From NCBI GenBank assembly GCA_028717645.1, contig JAQUNK010000009.1, positions 1 to 45,873 of the forward strand: a stretch of 45,873 nt of DNA, given 5' to 3'. A program made the position numbers and the translations under genes. The notes under the pieces are model-generated. The model was given only the letters and a program-made list of their open reading frames with translations, did not search any database and was not told where the DNA came from. Positions 2,701 to 18,327 of the stretch are shown piece by piece (position 1 is the stretch's first letter; each line of letters begins with the position of its first letter). The stretch comes from Candidatus Omnitrophota bacterium (GTDB taxonomy: Bacteria; Omnitrophota; Gorgyraeia; Gygaellales; JAMWDD01).

Positions 2701-3330
2701 ATGAAGAGGCTATTGTTTTTGTTAGTGTTTGTTATGGCGGTAATAGTGTTTAAAAACGGCTATTGTCAGGATAATCTCTCGGCAATAGATAAGATTGATA
2801 CTAAAACGAAGATTCAGGCGCAGGAAAATAAAATTCTTCCTAAAGAAGAGAATCCTGTTAAAGCCGAAGCAGTTCAAGATGAAACAAAGCCAATTGATGA
2901 TTCCAGCGATCAGGACCTGGAGAATATAAGAGCCTACAGAGAGGTCTTGGAAAATAAGCAAAAAGAACTCGAAGTCATCAAGCTTGACCTTGAAAAAAGC
3001 GATCTAATGCTAAAGAAAAGACAGGCGGAAAAAGAGATCTTTGAAATTGATAAAGCCCTTCCCCAGGGAAAGTCGGATGTTTCCTCTGTGTCCGGTGGGC
3101 TTAACCAAGGGGAAAAAGTTTCCTTGGTAGATCCCTCGGATATTAAATTACAGCTTTTAGTGATAGCGGATAACCTAAAAGAAGGCCAGATCAGCCTTAA
3201 AAATACTCCTTATGTTTTTAAGGAAGGGGATTCTATAGCTTCAAAGTTGACCGTTGAGCAAATTGAGCCTACGGGCGTTACTTTTAAGCAGGTTGACGGA
3301 AGCTTATTTAAACTTAACTTCGTAAACTAA
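2701..3330 (+). CDS. PilP-like periplasmic pilus protein
   Basis: This 209-residue protein starts with a signal peptide (MKRLLFLLVFVMAVIVF, then NGYCQ, where the Cys could be lipidated). A charged linker and a coiled coil (about 75-125) follow. The C-terminal domain of about 55 residues (from LQLLVIADNLKEGQ) resembles the small beta domain of PilP, with GDSIASKLTVEQIEPTGVTFKQ. PilP contacts the secretin and the PilN/PilO complex. The start is preceded by AAAAAAGGAGGAAG. The ATPase gene follows after one base. Sequence similarity to PilP is suggestive only; context makes the call. Confidence 0.6.
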   Translation: MKRLLFLLVFVMAVIVFKNGYCQDNLSAIDKIDTKTKIQAQENKILPKEENPVKAEAVQDETKPIDDSSDQDLENIRAYREVLENKQKELEVIKLDLEKSDLMLKKRQAEKEIFEIDKALPQGKSDVSSVSGGLNQGEKVSLVDPSDIKLQLLVIADNLKEGQISLKNTPYVFKEGDSIASKLTVEQIEPTGVTFKQVDGSLFKLNFVN

Positions 3331-3331
3331 A

Positions 3332-4975
3332 ATGCCTGTACAAGAAATAGGAAACATCCTTTTAAGCTCCAAAGTAGTCACGAAAGAACAGCTTGAATTC
3401 GCTCTTACTATCCAAAGGAGCACTAGCCCCGGGCAAAGGCTGGGCAGGATCCTAAAGTATTACAATTTTGTAAGCGACGAAGCAATTGCCCAAGCCTTGA
3501 GTAAACAGGTCGGCTGGAAATATTTTGACAAAAAGTATGTCTTAGATCTTCCTGTAATAGAGAAAATAGGCCTGGATTTCCTGATAGACAGGGCATTTGT
3601 TCCGGTTGAAACAGAGAACGAACTTAGCTTTATTTTCGCCTACCCTTTTGATATCGAAGCAACTGATCTTTTAGCCAGCCTGGGGCTGCGCGACAAAGAG
3701 TTTTATATTGGCAGCGAGGGCGCAATCCGGGCGCATCTGGAGCTGCTCAAGAATAAAAAAATAAAGCAGGAGATTGACAAGAGAATAAACCTGCTTAAGG
3801 AAAGAGGCGTTGTTGGCGATGAGCTAAAAGAGCTCTTGGATGAGCTGCTTAATGATGCGGTTATTCATAATGCCACCGATATCCACATTGAGCCTGAAGA
3901 AGAAATATCCACCATACGTTTTAGGATTGACGGCATACTCTACTTTAAGTTTTGTATTCCCCTGGAGGTGCATAACAACTTAATCAATGTGGTATTTAGC
4001 CGCGCAGAGATTACTGTCTCTGACTTTTACCGCTTCCATGATGCTAGGTTCCAGTATACCTATTCGGATCACTCGGTAGATATCCGGGTATCGAGCATCC
4101 CTTCTATTTTTGGTCCTGCCTTGGTTTTAAGGCTCCTGGATGTAAATAAGACCCTGATTACTCTGCCTAATCTGGGATTTGACCAGATGCACTTTGATAA
4201 TATCAGCCGCATAGTGCGTAAGCCCCACGGAATTATCATTATCACCGGGCCCACAGGAAGCGGCAAAACTACTACTCTTTATGCCATCTTAAACCAGCTT
4301 AAAGACCTTTCCACAAAAGTATTAACCATTGAGGATCCTGTGGAAATCAAGATGCCGCTTATAAACCAGGTGCAGATTAATGAGAAACAGGGCATAAGCT
4401 TTGCCCATGCCACAAGGGCTTTTTTAAGGCATGACCCTAATATCATCTTAATCGGTGAAATCCGTGACCCTGATACGGCGCAGGAAGCAATCCGCGCATC
4501 CATTACCGGACACAGGGTGCTTTCCACGCTGCATACCAACACCGCGGTAGATTCCATTTACCGGCTGCATGACTTAGGTATAGACCTTTCTTACATCGCA
4601 AACAGCATTCTTTGCGTCATTTCCCAAAGACTGATCCGCAAGCTCTGTCCTTTTTGCAGGAAAAGAGTTAAGGTTAAAAAGGAAAACATGCCTGATTCTT
4701 TTAAGAATTTTCTTCTTGGCGAAAACGAAAATGAGATTCGCTTGTTTAAGGCAGGCGGTTGCGAACACTGCCAGGGAGGTTATAAAGGCCGTACCGTGAT
4801 TGCCGAGATCTTGGATTTTGACGAGGAAATTCGCGATATGGTTGCTTCCGGGAAACTTGACCAGCTTCGGCACAAATGGAGAGAAAAGGCATATTTAACT
4901 CTGGAGCAGGATACAGGAACGCTTCTTTTAAAAGGGCAAACCTCGCTTGAAGAGGCGGAAAGGATACTCGGATAG
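3332..4975 (+). CDS. PilB/GspE-family assembly ATPase (IncI PilQ-like)
   Basis: At 547 residues this is a standard hexameric pilus or secretion ATPase. It has an N-terminal MshEN-like domain (QEIGNILLSSKVVTKEQLE), Walker A GPTGSGKTTT (about residue 306), an Asp box region (LTIEDPVEIK), Walker B ILIGEIRDPDTAQEA (about 371) and a His box (VLSTLHTNTA). The C-terminal metal-binding module of GspE/PilB proteins is present as CPFC (about 439-442) and CEHC (about 478-481). It powers pilin extraction and fibre growth from the cytoplasmic face. The stop abuts the ATG of the inner-membrane platform gene, the usual GspE-GspF order. Confidence 0.93.
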   Translation: MPVQEIGNILLSSKVVTKEQLEFALTIQRSTSPGQRLGRILKYYNFVSDEAIAQALSKQVGWKYFDKKYVLDLPVIEKIGLDFLIDRAFVPVETENELSFIFAYPFDIEATDLLASLGLRDKEFYIGSEGAIRAHLELLKNKKIKQEIDKRINLLKERGVVGDELKELLDELLNDAVIHNATDIHIEPEEEISTIRFRIDGILYFKFCIPLEVHNNLINVVFSRAEITVSDFYRFHDARFQYTYSDHSVDIRVSSIPSIFGPALVLRLLDVNKTLITLPNLGFDQMHFDNISRIVRKPHGIIIITGPTGSGKTTTLYAILNQLKDLSTKVLTIEDPVEIKMPLINQVQINEKQGISFAHATRAFLRHDPNIILIGEIRDPDTAQEAIRASITGHRVLSTLHTNTAVDSIYRLHDLGIDLSYIANSILCVISQRLIRKLCPFCRKRVKVKKENMPDSFKNFLLGENENEIRLFKAGGCEHCQGGYKGRTVIAEILDFDEEIRDMVASGKLDQLRHKWREKAYLTLEQDTGTLLLKGQTSLEEAERILG

Positions 4976-6181
4976 ATGTATTACAGATACAGCGTCTTGA
5001 CTCAAACCGGCAATGAAATTAAAGGCTTTGAGCGGGGGGCATACCCAGAAATAGCGAAAAGGCTAAAAGAGAAAAATTATTACATATTATCCTTGGAAGC
5101 GGATTTCTTTAAGTCAATAAAGTTTGTCCTGGAAAAGAAGAGCGTCAAGGCGCAAAGCTTGTCTTTATTTTTTGAGGATCTGGCCAATATGCTTAAAACC
5201 GGTATTGCCATGAACGAGGCGATAAGCGCTCTTCGCGAGTCATCCATTGATAAGGTATTGTCTAAAGCCTTATCGGGAATCGAATATGATCTTGCCAATG
5301 GTTTTTCTCTGGCTAAGGCCTTTGAGAAAACAAAAGTTTTCCCTTGGCTGGTTTTAAACACGCTTAAGGTAGGAGAGAAATCCGGATCTCTTGAGCAGGT
5401 CTTTGTTGACCTGGCGCAGTATTATTCCAGGGAGGCGGAATTCTTGAGCAGTTTAAGGAACGCTGTGATTTATCCGGCAGTCGTATTCTCTATGCTCATT
5501 GGAATAATGTTCTATGTTTCCTTTAAGGTAATTCCGCACCTGGAAGCGCTTCTTCCCATAAACGGCAATAGTTATTTTGCAACCAGGCTGCTTTTATTTT
5601 TAAGTCATTTCCTGAAGGATTACTGGTTTGTCTACCTATTGTTTCCCGTTGTTGGTATTTTTATTTACTCAAGGTTCAGGAAAAGCCCGGCTGGAAGGAT
5701 CGCCTCTTACTATTACAAGATTCCTCTCTTCGGCCCGGTTGCAAAAGACGCGGCTTTCAGCGCGTTTTTCTCTAACCTTGCGGTCCTCTCAAGAAACGGC
5801 ATCAATATCGCTGATGCGCTTTCATTGATTGAGGAAACCACTTCCTATCAGTTCTTAGCTAAAAAGATTGGCAGGCTAAAAGACTACATCGCAAGCGGCC
5901 TAAGTTTCTGGCAGGCGTTACAAAAGGATCCGTTCTTTCCGTCATTTATTTATTATTCGGTAAGAAAGGGTGAGGAGATGGGTTCGCTTGATGAGTATCT
6001 ACAGAATCTTTCCAAGTATTATTTTGAGAAGGTTTCAAGGCGCACGCGCGTAATTTTGAGTTTTATCCAGCCTGCGCTTTTAGTGTTTTGCGCCCTGATT
6101 CTGTTATTTGTTGTCTCGGCATTCATCATGCCGGTTTACAGCAATCTTTCCAACATTGCGGGAGGCAATGTTAAGTTTTAG
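4976..6181 (+). CDS. GspF/PilC-family inner-membrane platform protein (IncI PilR-like)
   Basis: The 401-residue product has the duplicated GspF domain. Each half has a helical bundle (first SLFFEDLANMLKTGIAMNEAI, second AFFSNLAVLSRNGINIADAL) followed by membrane helices (about 170-190, 215-235 and 372-395). The motif LKVGEKSGSLEQVF and its second-half echo VRKGEEMGSLDEYL are typical. The protein anchors the ATPase and passes pilin subunits into the growing fibre. The start codon directly follows the ATPase stop. Confidence 0.92.
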   Translation: MYYRYSVLTQTGNEIKGFERGAYPEIAKRLKEKNYYILSLEADFFKSIKFVLEKKSVKAQSLSLFFEDLANMLKTGIAMNEAISALRESSIDKVLSKALSGIEYDLANGFSLAKAFEKTKVFPWLVLNTLKVGEKSGSLEQVFVDLAQYYSREAEFLSSLRNAVIYPAVVFSMLIGIMFYVSFKVIPHLEALLPINGNSYFATRLLLFLSHFLKDYWFVYLLFPVVGIFIYSRFRKSPAGRIASYYYKIPLFGPVAKDAAFSAFFSNLAVLSRNGINIADALSLIEETTSYQFLAKKIGRLKDYIASGLSFWQALQKDPFFPSFIYYSVRKGEEMGSLDEYLQNLSKYYFEKVSRRTRVILSFIQPALLVFCALILLFVVSAFIMPVYSNLSNIAGGNVKF

Positions 6182-13619: not shown

Positions 13620-13765
13620 AACTTATTGAAGTGAGTTAATGCCTATTTTTTAATGTGCCATAAATGCGTCAGACAGTACATAAACTCAACTCTAATTTCC
13701 TCTAGCCTTCCAGTCCAGCCATAAAATTTTAATCGCCCACTTTACCATTTAGCCGTCTTTAACTA

Positions 13766-14204
13766 CTACTTCAATCATTCACTTCCTTTCTTGTTTTTTG
13801 TTTTCTCTTGCCGTCACGTAATCCTCCTTTCTTTTTATCCGCCTACAATAACCCAAGCCTGACTTTTGTGCAAGAAAATCCTTTGGAAAAATTCATCTCT
13901 ACCTAAAAAGCCTTTTCGTGGTTTGCCTCGGAAAGGCTTTTTTGGTATCAGAAGTATTCTGCCCCTTGCGGGGAGTCTCAATTTTTCCAAAGGACTCCAC
14001 TGATGCTCGTTCGCTTGGCGCTCACTCCCTTCGGGCATGCCTGTTTTCTTGACAAAAGACCGTATTTTCTGTGGTGTGCCTCAAAAAATACTTCAACTTC
14101 TTGGGTTTTAATTTTCGGCGTCAAAAGAAAGGAGTTTCACATGAGCCAAGAAAAAACAAAACAAAAAACAAATCGAAAGGAGGTGAGTAACATGATTGAA
14201 GTAG
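13766..14204 (+). ncRNA. Structured element copy 1 (candidate cis-regulatory RNA or ssDNA structure)
   Basis: This region has no convincing gene on either strand before spoVG, but it folds extensively. Outer arms: 13766-13778 with 14192-14204 (13 bp), 13780-13790 with 14175-14185, 13791-13804 with 14158-14171 (14 bp), 13824-13835 with 14123-14134 (12 bp). Then AACCCAAG with CTTGGGTT, and CTTTTGTGCAAGAAAA (13863-13878) with TTTTCTTGACAAAAG (14044-14058). Inside are 13880-13893 with 13980-13993 (14 bp), a hairpin 13902-13945 with loop TGGTTTGCCT, CAGAA-GTA-TTCTG, CCCC-TTGC-GGGG, and a hairpin 14062-14091 with loop TGGTGTGCCT. Copy 2 at 17689-18086 keeps the same helices with compensatory changes. 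The 3' arm covers both ribosome sites of spoVG. The family is not one I recognise. The strand is assigned + because the arm pairs with the downstream gene start. Confidence 0.8.
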
Positions 14205-14446
14205 CACGTATTTTCAAAGTAGAAAATAAAGAAGAAAGTACCCTTAAAGCCTTCGTAGACGTCAAAGTCTCCGATGTAGTTTTAATCAAAGGCATCCGGG
14301 TACTGGCTAAAAAAGAGGGTGGGCTGTTTGCAGCTATGCCTTCCAATTTAGCTGGTGACGGTAAGTATTATCCTACCGTCAAGTTTCTGACGGCCGAAGC
14401 CAATGAAGAACTACAAAAGGTAGTTCTTACGGCTTACGAAGCTTAA
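14192..14446 (+). CDS. spoVG: SpoVG-family protein
   Basis: The 84-residue product aligns by eye with SpoVG: IEVARIFKVENKEESTLKAFVDVKVSDVVLIKGIRVL, then GGLFAAMPS and YYPTVKFLTAEANEELQKVVLTAYE. SpoVG is a small site-specific DNA/RNA-binding regulator found well beyond spore formers. I choose the ATG at 14192, right after GAAAGGAGGTGAG, because it begins the conserved domain. An in-frame ATG at 14141, also with a ribosome site (AAAGGAG), would add a 17-residue Lys/Gln-rich extension (MSQEKTKQKTNRKEVSN). Both ribosome sites lie in the 3' arm of the structured element. The modifier gene follows. Confidence 0.88.
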   Translation: MIEVARIFKVENKEESTLKAFVDVKVSDVVLIKGIRVLAKKEGGLFAAMPSNLAGDGKYYPTVKFLTAEANEELQKVVLTAYEA

Positions 14447-14448
14447 GA

Positions 14449-14487
14449 ATTAAAAAAGCTGTCCTATCGGCTATACGGGGAGAAAGA
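14449..14487 (+). promoter_or_regulatory. Repeated leader motif, copy a (upstream of the ubiquitin-like gene)
   Basis: The sequence GCTGTCCTATCGGCTATACGGGGAGAAAG sits between spoVG and the modifier gene. It recurs almost unchanged at 17374-17410 before another small gene. AGC/GGCT-type pairing forms a small hairpin whose one differing pair changes from a T-G wobble to T-A. The end of the motif supplies GGGGAG, about 12 bases from the start codon. It may be a translation control or RNA-binding site. Confidence 0.6.
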
Positions 14488-14495
14488 TAACTAAA

Positions 14496-14729
14496 ATGAA
14501 CTTAAACGAACTGAAAAACGAGAAGATCAACGTAACCATCGCAGGAGAAGAGGTTGAGGTAAAAAGAAGCGATTCCGTAAAGGACACCCTAACAAGGATC
14601 CTTCAGGAGAAGGGAATTGATTCCTTTACCATCCTGGTTGACGGCGCAGAAGTTACTTCAACCGATAACCTGCCAGCTACTTTTGACGGCCATGATATCG
14701 AAGTGGAAAAGTACGTCAAAGCAGGTTAA
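14496..14729 (+). CDS. Ubiquitin-like (beta-grasp) modifier protein
   Basis: This 77-residue protein has the beta-grasp order: two strands (KINVTIAG, EEVEVKRS), one helix (DSVKDTLTRILQEKG), strands FTILVDGAEV and DIEVEKYV, and a short free tail ending Lys-Ala-Gly. Modifiers usually end in Gly-Gly; a single terminal Gly also occurs in bacterial families such as those of PRTRC and related cassettes. The three following genes encode E2-like, E1-like and JAMM proteins, so this is very probably the substrate that is adenylated and conjugated. A 17-bp terminator-like hairpin follows directly, which may give more modifier than enzyme. Confidence 0.82.
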   Translation: MNLNELKNEKINVTIAGEEVEVKRSDSVKDTLTRILQEKGIDSFTILVDGAEVTSTDNLPATFDGHDIEVEKYVKAG

Positions 14730-14735
14730 AGCGTT

Positions 14736-14779
14736 AAGCCAAGAGAGGGAGAGAATTTTCTCCCTCTCTTGGCTTTTAA
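14736..14779 (+). terminator. Strong hairpin between modifier and E2-like gene
   Basis: AAGCCAAGAGAGGGAGA (14736-14752) pairs perfectly over 17 bp with 14759-14775, leaving a 6-nt loop, and TTTT completes it. It has the form of an intrinsic terminator. The next gene's ribosome site begins immediately after, and the operon continues in the same direction, so partial termination or mRNA end protection is the likely effect. Confidence 0.8.
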
Positions 14780-14792
14780 AGGAGAAAGAAAG

Positions 14793-15380
14793 ATGATAGA
14801 TACAGAGCTAATAAATAAAGCCAAGAAAAAATCAGGCCTGATTGAGCAGATTGACGCTGCCTGGCGGGAATTCGTAAACAGACTCAGAGAAAATACCTTT
14901 AGTATCCCTTTTAAAGGCGAATACAGCTGTATGATTAAAGACAGCGACATGTTTGTTGAAGGTTACTCTGGCCTACTTCTCATAGATAAGCTGTATTATA
15001 ACCATAAAACTTATTTCTTGAAGAAGCCTATTAAATATTACCCTTTTAAAATCTACGGCGTATACGGCGAAAGGGGAAGCTTTACGAATTTTGTAACTGA
15101 TCCGGAAATAGGCTTTCATTACCTTGGCTTAAGCGATAAAGGACACTCAATTTGCACAGGAGATATTCAATACCTTAATCCTGAATCCTTAGGCCTGCTC
15201 AAAGAAACTGCTCTTAAGATAATCAGAGCATTCCGGGTAATCAATCTTGAATCCTTGGGAACGGTCATCCTTCCGGAAAGTTACTTAAACCTTAAAAACA
15301 TCTTTTCCAATAAGGATGAAGACGCAAAGCATAAGTTTGAAAAACTGCTTGGTCAAAACCTCATTGAGGAAATCATTTAG
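14793..15380 (+). CDS. E2-like conjugating protein (PRTRC-B/RWD-like), tentative
   Basis: The ATG at 14793 follows AAAGGAGAAAG, giving 195 residues; the frame is open upstream to a TTG at 14769 but that lies in the hairpin. Residues 80-127 resemble the E2 core: PIKYYPFKIYGV, then DPEIGFHYLGLSDKGHSICTGDIQYL. His109 and Cys121 would correspond to the HPN-type His and the catalytic Cys of the G-x-I-C-x-D motif (here GHSICTGD). PRTRC protein B, thought to be E2-like, has a similar GRVCLGSM motif. Position between the modifier and E1-like genes strongly supports the role. Overall similarity is too low to be certain by eye. Confidence 0.6.
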   Translation: MIDTELINKAKKKSGLIEQIDAAWREFVNRLRENTFSIPFKGEYSCMIKDSDMFVEGYSGLLLIDKLYYNHKTYFLKKPIKYYPFKIYGVYGERGSFTNFVTDPEIGFHYLGLSDKGHSICTGDIQYLNPESLGLLKETALKIIRAFRVINLESLGTVILPESYLNLKNIFSNKDEDAKHKFEKLLGQNLIEEII

Positions 15381-15393
15381 AAGGAGAAAAAAC

Positions 15394-16377
15394 ATGCCTG
15401 AACAAGCGATTTATGAACGTCAAAACTTAATCAACGGCCTGGAGATTCCGCAGACTGCTTCTGTTGTAGGCTGTGGAGGCACAGGTTTTTGGACCGCTTT
15501 ACTTCTTGCAATGTCCGGCGTAGAAGATTTAATCCTGATTGATTCTGACATAGTTGAAGTATCCAATCTAAACCGGCTTTTCTTTGAAGAAACCTGCGTA
15601 GGCAAGAAGAAAGCGGAAGCATTAAAGAATCTAATCCTAACAGTAAGAAAACAGGTCAGGATTGAAATCCATGACATGCGCATTGAAAAACCTCTGGACT
15701 GTCAGGTTTTAAGGGGAGAGATTTTCTGCTGTACAGATAACTTAAAAAGCCAGCAGATTATCTGCGCTTATTGCAAAAAGAACGAGTTTGCCTATCAAAG
15801 AATAGGCTATGACGGCACGATCCTGAATGTCTCCAAGACATTCCCGCTTTCCTTTAAGGAAGTAGAACAGCAGGGTTATACGGTAACGCCTTCCTGGGTA
15901 ATCCCAGCGGTATTTGCCGCGGCAGCAGGAGTATCTTCCAGAATATACAAAGAATTATGCCTGATGGATGATCTAGGTAAACTCCATATACAGAAATCTT
16001 CCCACATCTGTAAAAAAATCCTAGATGACGCAAAGAAAGAAGAACGGGAGTACATCGAAGAGAATATCAACGATTTTATTCCTGATAGTTACGGTTATTG
16101 TGATGACTGCGATAGAATTAACCCTGATGATTCCGATTACGGCTACTGTCCGGATTGCAAGAGAGTAGATCCCGAAGACGGTTGGGCGCGCTGTTCTGAA
16201 TGTGATGAGCATTATACTGAAGATGATATTGAAGACATAAAAGAAAAGGCAAAGAATGAGGAGTATGACAGGATAATCGAACAGCTTGAAACAGGCGCGC
16301 TTAGAGACCCAAAACTTATCGCAGCCCTTAAAAAATGGGGAGAAAGGAAGGAGGATACAAAAAATGTTAGAAAATGA
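15394..16377 (+). CDS. E1/ThiF-like modifier-activating enzyme with zinc ribbons
   Basis: The ATG at 15394 is preceded by AAGGAG; the frame runs further upstream but into the E2-like gene. The 327-residue protein has the ThiF/E1 Rossmann nucleotide site VVGCGGTGFW (Gly26-Gly31), LIDSDIVEVSNLNRLFF with Asp50, Asp52, Asn58, Asn60 and Arg61 for adenylation, and CCTDN (Asp115). Candidate catalytic Cys are 112, 113, 124 and 127. The C-terminal part adds three CxxC pairs (236/239, 252/255, 267/270), a likely zinc-ribbon region. It should adenylate the 77-residue modifier's C-terminus and pass it to Cys121 of the E2-like protein. It overlaps the JAMM gene by 14 bases. Confidence 0.88.
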   Translation: MPEQAIYERQNLINGLEIPQTASVVGCGGTGFWTALLLAMSGVEDLILIDSDIVEVSNLNRLFFEETCVGKKKAEALKNLILTVRKQVRIEIHDMRIEKPLDCQVLRGEIFCCTDNLKSQQIICAYCKKNEFAYQRIGYDGTILNVSKTFPLSFKEVEQQGYTVTPSWVIPAVFAAAAGVSSRIYKELCLMDDLGKLHIQKSSHICKKILDDAKKEEREYIEENINDFIPDSYGYCDDCDRINPDDSDYGYCPDCKRVDPEDGWARCSECDEHYTEDDIEDIKEKAKNEEYDRIIEQLETGALRDPKLIAALKKWGERKEDTKNVRK

Positions 16378-17170
16378 TCTTCTAAAAAAGAGTAATATTC
16401 TGGAAGTAAAAATAAAAAACTACGGTGAATGCGGTTTCTGCAGCGACAGGGATAATCAGGAAACCTTGAAAATCCCCTGGAGTATCTGGAGTCAGTGGTT
16501 GTATATCAGCCAGTGCATGGGAGATAAGGAATGGGGCGCGGTATTCTGGGTTAAGGATAACACCATAACCAGCTTTAAAATTCCCAAGCAGGAGGTAGGT
16601 TCAGTAGACTGTGAATTCAAGGAGGAATTGGGCGGTGACGGAATAATCCATTCGCACCATGATATGGGAGCGTTTCATTCTTCGCAGGATGATGCCCACG
16701 CGCGCAATCTCTACACTTACAGCATTGTTACCGCTAATTCAAAAGGCAGTATTGCTACCAAGAGGGTTAAACTTCCTTGTAAAGGCTTTGGCTACGTAAA
16801 AATAAGCTTGCAGTTGGTTGAATTGCCTGCGATAGACCTTTCAAAGATAAGCGAAAGAATAAGGGAATTGATTCCAGAGGCGAACTCAGGATTTGAGGAA
16901 AGCGAGTACCCTTGTGATATTTGTCAGACCGGTGACTGCGAAAATTGTGAACACTCAGGTATGCCTTTTCTATCTTGTCAGATTTGTAATATTTTTAAAT
17001 GCAAATCCTGCAAGGCAACTGCCGGCCTGGAGATTCGGGGAGTGCTTCCTTTTTGCGAGGTTTGTAATGGTTCTGAAACTTGCGCTTCCTGCGAAAAAAT
17101 CGCAAAATATCTTAAAAATTACCCTGAGGAGCGAGGACGCTTGCAAACTCCAGCTGAAAGTCAATCGTGA
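16364..17170 (+). CDS. JAMM/MPN-type isopeptidase with cysteine-rich C-terminus
   Basis: I start at the ATG at 16364, after AAAGGAAGGAGG, giving 268 residues. The JAMM zinc site is complete: Glu56 (KEWGAVFWV), His96 and His98 (IIHSHHD), Ser106 and Asp109 (HSSQDD), with the exact H-x-H-x7-S-x2-D spacing. Such enzymes remove or process ubiquitin-like modifiers. From about residue 182 to 252 there are many CxxC pairs (CDIC, CENC, CQIC, CKSC, CEVC, CASC), so two or three zinc-binding modules probably follow the catalytic domain. It ends the cassette; two inverted repeats lie downstream. Confidence 0.88.
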   Translation: MLENDLLKKSNILEVKIKNYGECGFCSDRDNQETLKIPWSIWSQWLYISQCMGDKEWGAVFWVKDNTITSFKIPKQEVGSVDCEFKEELGGDGIIHSHHDMGAFHSSQDDAHARNLYTYSIVTANSKGSIATKRVKLPCKGFGYVKISLQLVELPAIDLSKISERIRELIPEANSGFEESEYPCDICQTGDCENCEHSGMPFLSCQICNIFKCKSCKATAGLEIRGVLPFCEVCNGSETCASCEKIAKYLKNYPEERGRLQTPAESQS

Positions 17171-17229
17171 AGGTTTATAAATACGCTTGCCCCGCCCTGC
17201 CTTTGTGGGTTTTTGGTTGTGGGTTTGGT

Positions 17230-17311
17230 TTGGGTGATTTTGTTTGGAACGAGCGTGCGGTAGCCTTCGAGAGGGTTGTTGACGAAATCACCCAAAAGGC
17301 TACCGCACGCT
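17230..17311. repeat. Two interleaved perfect inverted repeats after the conjugation cassette
   Basis: TTGGGTGATTT (17230-17240) is the inverse of AAATCACCCAA (17285-17295). The 16 bases 17252-17267 are the inverse of 17296-17311 (core GCGTGCGGTAGCCTT). The arms alternate a-b-a'-b', so both helices cannot form as simple nested hairpins. A terminator, a protein-binding or replication/transfer site, or a switch between two folds are all possible. The rest of 17171-17415 shows no gene. Confidence 0.7.
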
Positions 17312-17373
17312 ATTAGCTTTAAGTGCTTGGGGGTAAAGATAAATTATAAATATTGAATGTGTTCTGAAAAATT

Positions 17374-17410
17374 AATTAAAAGCTGTCCTACCAGCTATAC
17401 GGGGAGAAAG
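17374..17410 (+). promoter_or_regulatory. Repeated leader motif, copy b
   Basis: GCTGTCCTACCAGCTATACGGGGAGAAAG matches 14449-14487 with two substitutions, both in the small hairpin. It lies just before the ATG at 17416, and its GGGGAG acts as ribosome site. Confidence 0.6.
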
Positions 17411-17616: not shown

Positions 17617-17688
17617 AATTGCCGTGTTAAATTTCTGATAGCGGATGAGCAAAATGGCCGCCCTTTCCATAGTTATGCGCTTTTCTCT

Positions 17689-18086
17689 CCATCCTCAAAT
17701 TTTCTTTTCTGTTTTTCCTTGTCGTCACGTAATCCTCTTTCTTTTTCCCGCCTACAATAGCCCAAGATTGACTTTTGTGCAAGAAAATCCTTGAGAATAA
17801 TTCCTCTCTACCTTGCACTTGTGGTCTGCCTCAAGATGCAAGGTATCAGAAGTATTCTGCCCCTATAGGGGAGTCTCAATTTTTCTCAAGGACCCCAGGA
17901 AACTCACTCGCTTGCGCTCGTTCCTTTCGGGCATACCTGTTTTCTTGACAAAAGCCGGCATTTCCTGGGTTGCCTGAAAATGCCTTCAAATCATTGGGCT
18001 TATATTTTCGGCGTCAAAAGAAAGGAGGCTCACATGAGCCAAGTAAAAAAAGAAATGTTAAAGAAAAACGAAAAATTTGAGGATGG
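17689..18086 (+). ncRNA. Structured element copy 2 (candidate cis-regulatory RNA or ssDNA structure)
   Basis: This is the second copy of the element at 13766. Helices: 17689-17703 with 18072-18086 (15 bp), 17734-17746 with 18016-18028 (one bulge), AGCCCAA with TTGGGCT, 17772-17787 with 17940-17954, 17789-17802 with 17878-17891, hairpin 17810-17844 with loop TGGTCTGCCT, CAGAA-GTA-TTCTG, CCCC-TATA-GGGG, and hairpin 17957-17984 with loop TGGGTTGCCT. Stem sequences differ from copy 1 but pairing is kept. The outer arm again pairs with the start of the downstream gene, and that arm sequence is specific to this locus. No credible gene occupies 17617-18033. Confidence 0.8.
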
Positions 18087-18327
18087 GGTGTTGCGCGCAG
18101 ATGCCTGTATGGAAAGGTATCAAAGCAGCCGAGATTCTCAATACAGAACGCATCAAGAGGATTTCCCGGAAGCTGCGTTCGGCTTATCCGCTCTCTGGGA
18201 AGAAAGAAATCTAATGAAGAACGTTTATAAGCTTATGGCGAAAGGATTTAAGCCAAACGGTTCTGAAAGCTTGGAATCCTTTGTTGAGAAGCACCAGAAT
18301 TTGCTTGATGAAGGAGGTGATTTTTAA
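18034..18327 (+). CDS. Hypothetical 97-residue protein downstream of structured element
   Basis: The ATG at 18034 follows AAAGAAAGGAGGCTCAC and begins with the same MSQ-Lys-rich start as the long form of spoVG. The product is helical and charged, with a region ADACMERYQSSRDSQYRTHQ and a C-terminal helix. I do not recognise it. The ribosome site and first codons lie in the 3' arm of the structured element. Its stop overlaps the next ATG (TAATG). Confidence 0.65.
   Translation: MSQVKKEMLKKNEKFEDGVLRADACMERYQSSRDSQYRTHQEDFPEAAFGLSALWEERNLMKNVYKLMAKGFKPNGSESLESFVEKHQNLLDEGGDF

Follow-up and report, generated by a model that had tools for sequence, protein, structure and literature searches.

When Frpo of the F plasmid folds, −35 and −10 boxes are restored, RNA polymerase is recruited, and the leading genes are expressed before second-strand synthesis (PMC9849209, PMC7690428); Frpo itself also primes replication in vitro (PMC7690428). 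In F, the leading genes are oriented such that the transferred strand serves as the template for their transcription (PMC11541004). Experiments have established single-strand promoters in plasmids of enterobacteria, and a few have been predicted elsewhere (PMC11541004, PMC9849209). Our literature search turned up no single-strand promoter of this kind for the phylum Omnitrophota.

Here we describe an AT-rich inverted-repeat hairpin of about 430 bases, two copies of which are carried by the stretch of Candidatus Omnitrophota DNA analysed in this study (45,873 nucleotides, hereafter the window; Table 1). We propose, with a probability of roughly 70%, that each copy serves a conjugative element as a single-stranded-DNA promoter, similar to Frpo (ssi). 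The likeness to Frpo1 and Frpo2 of F extends to a hairpin of about 330–430 nt in the template strand of the downstream gene, a folding-energy preference for that strand, an F-type conjugation system with the genes co-oriented with the tra genes, and the occurrence of at least two copies, spaced a few kb apart in front of different genes (Frpo1 and Frpo2 are 90% identical and lie about 5 kb apart). In contrast, the first gene is spoVG behind the element but ssb behind Frpo, and the element, unlike Frpo, is AT-rich, contains several conserved TGTGGTYTGCCTCA side hairpins, occurs in Omnitrophota genomes, and possesses outer arms over the ribosome sites and first codons that differ between loci. 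There is also no sequence similarity between the two: a blastn search of 72,556 plasmids, including Frpo-bearing sequences, gave no match, and we therefore describe the element as working like Frpo and do not claim it as a homologous member. Samuel et al. 2024 (PMC11541004) likewise predicted Frpo-like candidates from folded −35/−10 boxes in leading regions outside the classic F sequences. Those candidates came from individual islands by way of a box search, whereas for the present element about 18 copies form a family, to which a strand-preference test was applied and whose arms are specific to their loci.

Table 1. Coordinates of the two hairpin copies and associated features in the window
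Feature	Position	Strand	Remark
Copy 1 (type 1)	about 13766–14204		upstream of spoVG
Outer 5' arm, copy 1, spoVG-specific	13766–13804	+	pairs with 14158–14204 (second ribosome site, first codons)
Inner 5' arm, copy 1	13824–13851	+	pairs in the folds with the first ribosome site (14124–14135) and GGCG
Proposed −10-like box TATTGT, copy 1	13845–13850	−	17 nt from the −35-like box
Proposed −35-like box TTGCAC, copy 1	13868–13873	−	pairs with TTGACA 14049–14054, one bulged base
Side hairpin, conserved loop TGTGGTYTGCCTCA	13900–13947		
Two small apical hairpins and conserved GGGGAGTCTCAATTTTT	13949–13990		nearly invariant columns
TTGACA of 3' arm, partner of the −35-like box	14049–14054	+	near-invariant columns; TTGACT/TTGACC in G180
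Expected single-strand transcript start	about 14117–14120	+	predicted from the −10 position
First ribosome site GAAAGGAG	14127–14134	+	read from the sequence
spoVG (PF04026) with in-frame MSQ extension	14141–14446	+	Pfam E = 1.7e-15; internal start 14192
Copy 2 (type 2)	about 17676–18099		before the 97-residue gene
Outer 5' arm, copy 2	17676–17703	+	pairs with 18072–18099 in the 97-residue gene
Element body, copy 2	17704–18033		about 80% identical to copy 1
−10-like box, copy 2	17754–17759	−	
−35-like box, copy 2	17777–17782	−	
TTGACA, copy 2	17945–17950	+	
97-residue gene behind copy 2	18034–18327	+	matches no known family

Pairing of the arms with the gene starts

A sequence-only reading of this DNA had claimed that the 5' flank of each copy mirrors the start of the gene behind it and hides its ribosome sites. 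The complementarity itself was borne out. At copy 1, all the segments lie where they had been placed, and a stretch of about 39 bases in the 5' flank is complementary to the ribosome sites and the first spoVG codons: CTACTTCAATCAT (13766–13778) with ATGATTGAAGTAG (14192–14204), CACTTCCTTTC (13780–13790) with GAAAGGAGGTG, TTGTTTTTTGTTTT (13791–13804) with 14158–14171, and CTCCTTTCTTTT (13824–13835) with AAAAGAAAGGAG. The arm of copy 2 is different and pairs within the 97-residue gene; the inverted repeat there is 79% complementary over 28 nt. The arm–gene duplex gave z = −8.2 at copy 1 and z = −2.7 at copy 2, with 0 and 5 of 500 dinucleotide shuffles, respectively, being as good. Coverage of the ribosome sites differs between the copies: the copy 1 arms cover both sites, but the specific outer arm of copy 2 meets codons 13–18 and beyond and not the ribosome site, which is covered there by the shared inner arm, conserved in nearly all copies.

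The arms are specific to their loci, as had been claimed. The type-1 arm pairs with a mean energy of −40.5 kcal/mol on the type-1 gene and −31.2 kcal/mol on the type-2 gene, and the type-2 arm with −40.6 kcal/mol on the type-2 gene and −25.9 kcal/mol on the type-1 gene, so that cross-pairing between the types is weaker by 9–15 kcal/mol. Counterparts of the copy 1 outer arm are present in five type-1 homologues (L011, L029, L035, L031, and L010), and L018, L019, L010, L012, and L014 have an arm corresponding to that of copy 2. Own-gene pairing was kept in most copies (z from −3 to −8) and recurred in divergent homologues (z = −7.0, −4.8, −3.8, −5.7, and −3.1), with significant pairing in L014 and in the genomes G180 and G151 (z from −3.1 to −7.0). 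It was missing in a minority of three. L008 retains the gene and the core without the outer arm, the pairing is lost in the decayed L016, and L009 is a natural arm swap, in which a type-2 gene is preceded by a type-1 5' arm. L009 looks like the result of recombination between two copies; since the gene order around the element is rearranged in its genome (G118), we only infer such an event. Loss by recombination has been pointed out as a risk for Frpo1 and Frpo2 of F (PMC9849209), and by analogy the chimera could show the same kind of loss. The type-2 gene of this chimeric element (L009/L037) itself carries an internal deletion.

Each copy also contains two to three side hairpins that have the TGTGGTYTGCCTCA loop in common (e.g., 13900–13947 and 14059–14098), even at class-level divergence. 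The loop is likely a structural or protein-binding motif.

The pairings could be those of a + strand RNA leader, in which the 5' arm of the mRNA sequesters the ribosome sites and start codons of the gene behind it (spoVG or the 97-residue gene) until the fold is opened by a ligand, a protein, or translation of the leader. The coverage of both ribosome sites at copy 1, the recurrence of arms with different sequences at different genes, and 44 sites with two-sided Watson–Crick changes are consistent with such a leader, and the absence of the outer arm from L008, which has the gene and the core, argues against it. As in leaders that sequester ribosome-binding sites (riboswitches and thermometers), the ribosome sites would be inaccessible in a folded read-through mRNA. 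The element differs from such leaders in its strand preference and mismatch pattern, which are not those of a + strand RNA, and in matching no RNA family, as described below.

Strand preference of the fold

Comparison of folding energies between the two strands is a simple test of which strand a hairpin works on. If the functional molecule were a + strand RNA, the + strand should fold better than the − strand, and G·U should be tolerated over A·C. The + strand of the whole element folds well as RNA (z = −12.1 for copy 1 and −7.7 for copy 2 against dinucleotide shuffles), and the minus strand as DNA gave z = −12.9 and −11.0. With DNA parameters, the minus strand, which is complementary to the genes, folds better in 17 of 17 element copies, 9 of 9 Frpo, and 1 of 16 RNase P RNAs; the element copies are homologous and thus offer fewer independent observations than these counts, which makes the P values for strand preference optimistic. 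After the strand difference seen in shuffled sequences had been subtracted, the minus-strand excess with DNA parameters was −7.0 kcal/mol for the element (13 of 14 copies), −8.2 for Frpo (6 of 6), and −0.3 for RNase P. The corresponding values with RNA parameters were −6.6 (10 of 14), −12.0 (6 of 6), and +6.8.

Mismatches were counted at consensus pairs, voted from G·U-free folds of both strands, at three levels of rising pair support, with RNase P as the positive control for a + strand RNA. The A·C:G·T cells numbered 121:126, 59:57, and 41:29 in the element; 49:100, 8:35, and 6:25 in 16 Omnitrophota RNase P RNAs; and 38:11, 34:9, and 23:8 in eight enterobacterial Frpo copies read in gene orientation. 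The ratio in the element is thus near 1 and less extreme than that in Frpo. An earlier mismatch test without an alignment pointed in the same direction, with counts that are not independent. The mismatch pattern and the folding energies agree, and it is thus on the gene-complementary strand that the structure of the element appears to be tuned.

A search of Rfam 15 gave no match above the cut-off and only chance-level matches below it, and assignment of the element to a known RNA family was rejected for want of a convincing match. Of the earlier proposal that the RNA fold blocks translation, the conserved locus-specific pairing with the gene start therefore stands, but the minus-strand preference, the lack of a G·U excess, and the Rfam result do not support it as the main function, which it probably is not. 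Translation alone would also leave the match to single-strand promoters and the association with F-type conjugation unexplained. We consider the RNA leader unlikely.

Putative promoter boxes in the folded strand

On the 5' arm, 17 of the 18 copies have a TTG box followed after 16–18 nt by an AT-rich −10-like box, a raw count, uncorrected for chance, of weak sigma-70 matches. The TTG of the −35-like box is kept in all 18 copies and the AT-rich −10-like box in 17. The boxes of copy 1 (TTGCAC and TATTGT) are themselves weak matches, and the type-1 copies of G180 and G151 read TTGACG-16-TATTTT. The divergent L014 has no contiguous box pair and carries extra hairpins between the boxes in both arms; extruding these by hand would bring the boxes to 18–20 nt apart, and only then. 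In the 3' arm, TTGACA is followed by a side hairpin and is therefore not part of an ordinary + directed promoter.

Conjugation context

Genes for TraU, TraF, and TraH of F-type conjugation lie 2.4–6 kb upstream on the same strand. Among 128 genomes of the order, the element was present in eight and TraH in six, with both in five (Fisher P = 1.2e-6). In the one-contig genome G180, the genes for F-type TraG, the coupling protein TraD, TraB, and TraC (TIGR02746, E = 1e-112) precede the element in the same direction. Searches with three relaxase families (PF08751, PF07514, and PF03432) found no relaxase, and no oriT was found, and thus the transferred strand was deduced from gene direction only. 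In the F plasmid, the leading genes and the tra genes run in one direction; in the window, all of them are on the + strand.

Genes for Type IV/II pilus-like ATPases and membrane proteins are interleaved with those for F-type TraU/TraF/TraH/TraC at 2701–6181 and in L111. The mixed cluster of G180 also includes MSHA/PilN-type secretin genes, making an unusual transfer cluster without a recognisable relaxase.

Proposed function and alternatives

From the hairpin and its conservation, the strand preference, the spaced boxes, and the conjugation context, we infer the following course of events. During conjugation, the strand complementary to spoVG would enter the recipient single-stranded and fold back. 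The 5' arm would serve as the non-template strand in the folded minus strand, offering RNA polymerase a double-stranded −35/−10 region. Transcription would start near 14117 and run outward across the 3' arm into the gene, giving a short leader with a ribosome site, and the genes beside the element would be switched on before the second strand is made. The mRNA from this promoter would lack the 5' arm, so that its ribosome sites would be free. Synthesis of the second strand would then abolish the promoter.

The outer arms speak against this promoter reading to the extent that a single-strand promoter needs no arms reaching about 90 bases past the start, and gene-specific outer arms were absent from the four Frpo tested (z from −1.3 to 1.0). 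Read-through mRNA from upstream would hold both arms and be poorly translated, suggesting that the outer arms may silence such mRNA once the DNA is double-stranded. Such hiding of ribosome sites is a plausible second layer, in which the sequence-only reading may be right, and would in our view best account for the outer arms. In its full form, a dual-state element would act as a promoter on single-stranded DNA and as a translational block on mRNA from double-stranded DNA, its outer arms being refitted to whichever gene lies downstream. We put this forward tentatively, as a possibility that we do not favour; if true, entry genes would be on only during transfer and doubly off afterwards.

If the single-strand promoter is real, it points to the first genes needed on entry, namely, spoVG, the gene for the 97-residue protein, and the ubiquitin-like/ThiF/JAB cassette. 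A sequence-unrelated family in Omnitrophota would also suggest either more than one origin of gene expression from the incoming strand or an age far greater than has been assumed.

The evidence from the strand and the context would equally suit a single-strand initiation site or origin, at which polymerase or primase would be recruited by the hairpin solely for second-strand priming and gene expression would be incidental, in line with the priming activity of Frpo in vitro (PMC7690428). We judge this quite improbable, since the copies lie directly upstream of the ribosome sites of particular genes with the boxes pointing into those genes, and neither two copies per element nor gene-specific arms are needed for priming. 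An ordinary double-stranded promoter on the minus strand of the 5' arm, firing leftwards to yield a small RNA with the rightward pairing as a by-product, draws on the contiguous TTGCAC-17-TATTGT in most copies; it is very improbable, as the boxes of L014 do not form a contiguous pair, no conserved gene was seen in the leftward direction, and the pairing with the downstream gene and the near-invariant 3' arm would be unexplained. Equally remote is an origin of the outer arms as a mutational relic, in which fold-back template switching at the core hairpin copied the gene start into the 5' flank without selection: the arms range from near-perfect to absent among the loci and show no two-sided changes within type 1, but they persist in class-level relatives, which would take repeated regeneration.

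Distribution

The element was found only in Candidatus Omnitrophota, as judged from BLAST against related genomes and a two-part pattern search over 84,980 species anchored on the conserved GGGGAGTCTCAATTTTT. No element was found in phages, plasmids (PLSDB), or viral contigs (IMG/VR), and an origin from a phage, plasmid, or virus was rejected on this ground. The class-level relatives G151 and G180 each carry both a type-1 copy (spoVG) and a type-2 copy (97-residue gene). The set analysed comprised 18 copies. Extra copies in G016 (L044) were spurious fuzzy matches, with the exception of the truncated L013, and a type-2 relative in G157 (L100), the upstream region of which does not contain the conserved core, was left out of the analysis.

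Downstream genes and neighbouring repeats

In every type-1 homologue that reaches that far (L008, L010, L011, L029, G180, and G151), the MSQ codons share the SpoVG frame, and they are therefore probably an N-terminal extension of SpoVG, with the protein starting there or at the internal start. A separate MSQ leader peptide was rejected, the frame being continuous with SpoVG everywhere checked, including in L010 with its 12-nt deletion. The 97-residue gene is conserved behind the element in G137, G018, G180, and G151.

An operon at 14496–17170 encodes a ubiquitin-like protein, an unknown protein, and ThiF (PF00899) and JAB (PF14464) proteins, with weak similarity to PRTRC. It stands behind copy 1 in the window and behind the type-2 gene in G180, and is a candidate early-entry gene set.

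Several further repeats were observed. A short repeat, AGCTGTCCTAYCRGCTATACGGGGAGAAAG, occurs at 14454–14486 and 17378–17410 with 94% identity and includes a ribosome site; it could form a small hairpin or an H-type pseudoknot, and related motifs precede the type-2 element in G180 and G151. TCTAGTCCAGCCATAAAATTT or close variants lie 30–70 bases 5' of the outer arm at several type-1 loci (L029, L031, L035, and L009), and at about 13700–13735 in the window. Finally, the region 17225–17315 contains the long inverted repeats GCGTGCGGTAGCC / GGCTACCGCACGC, nested with GGGTGATTT / AAATCACCC.
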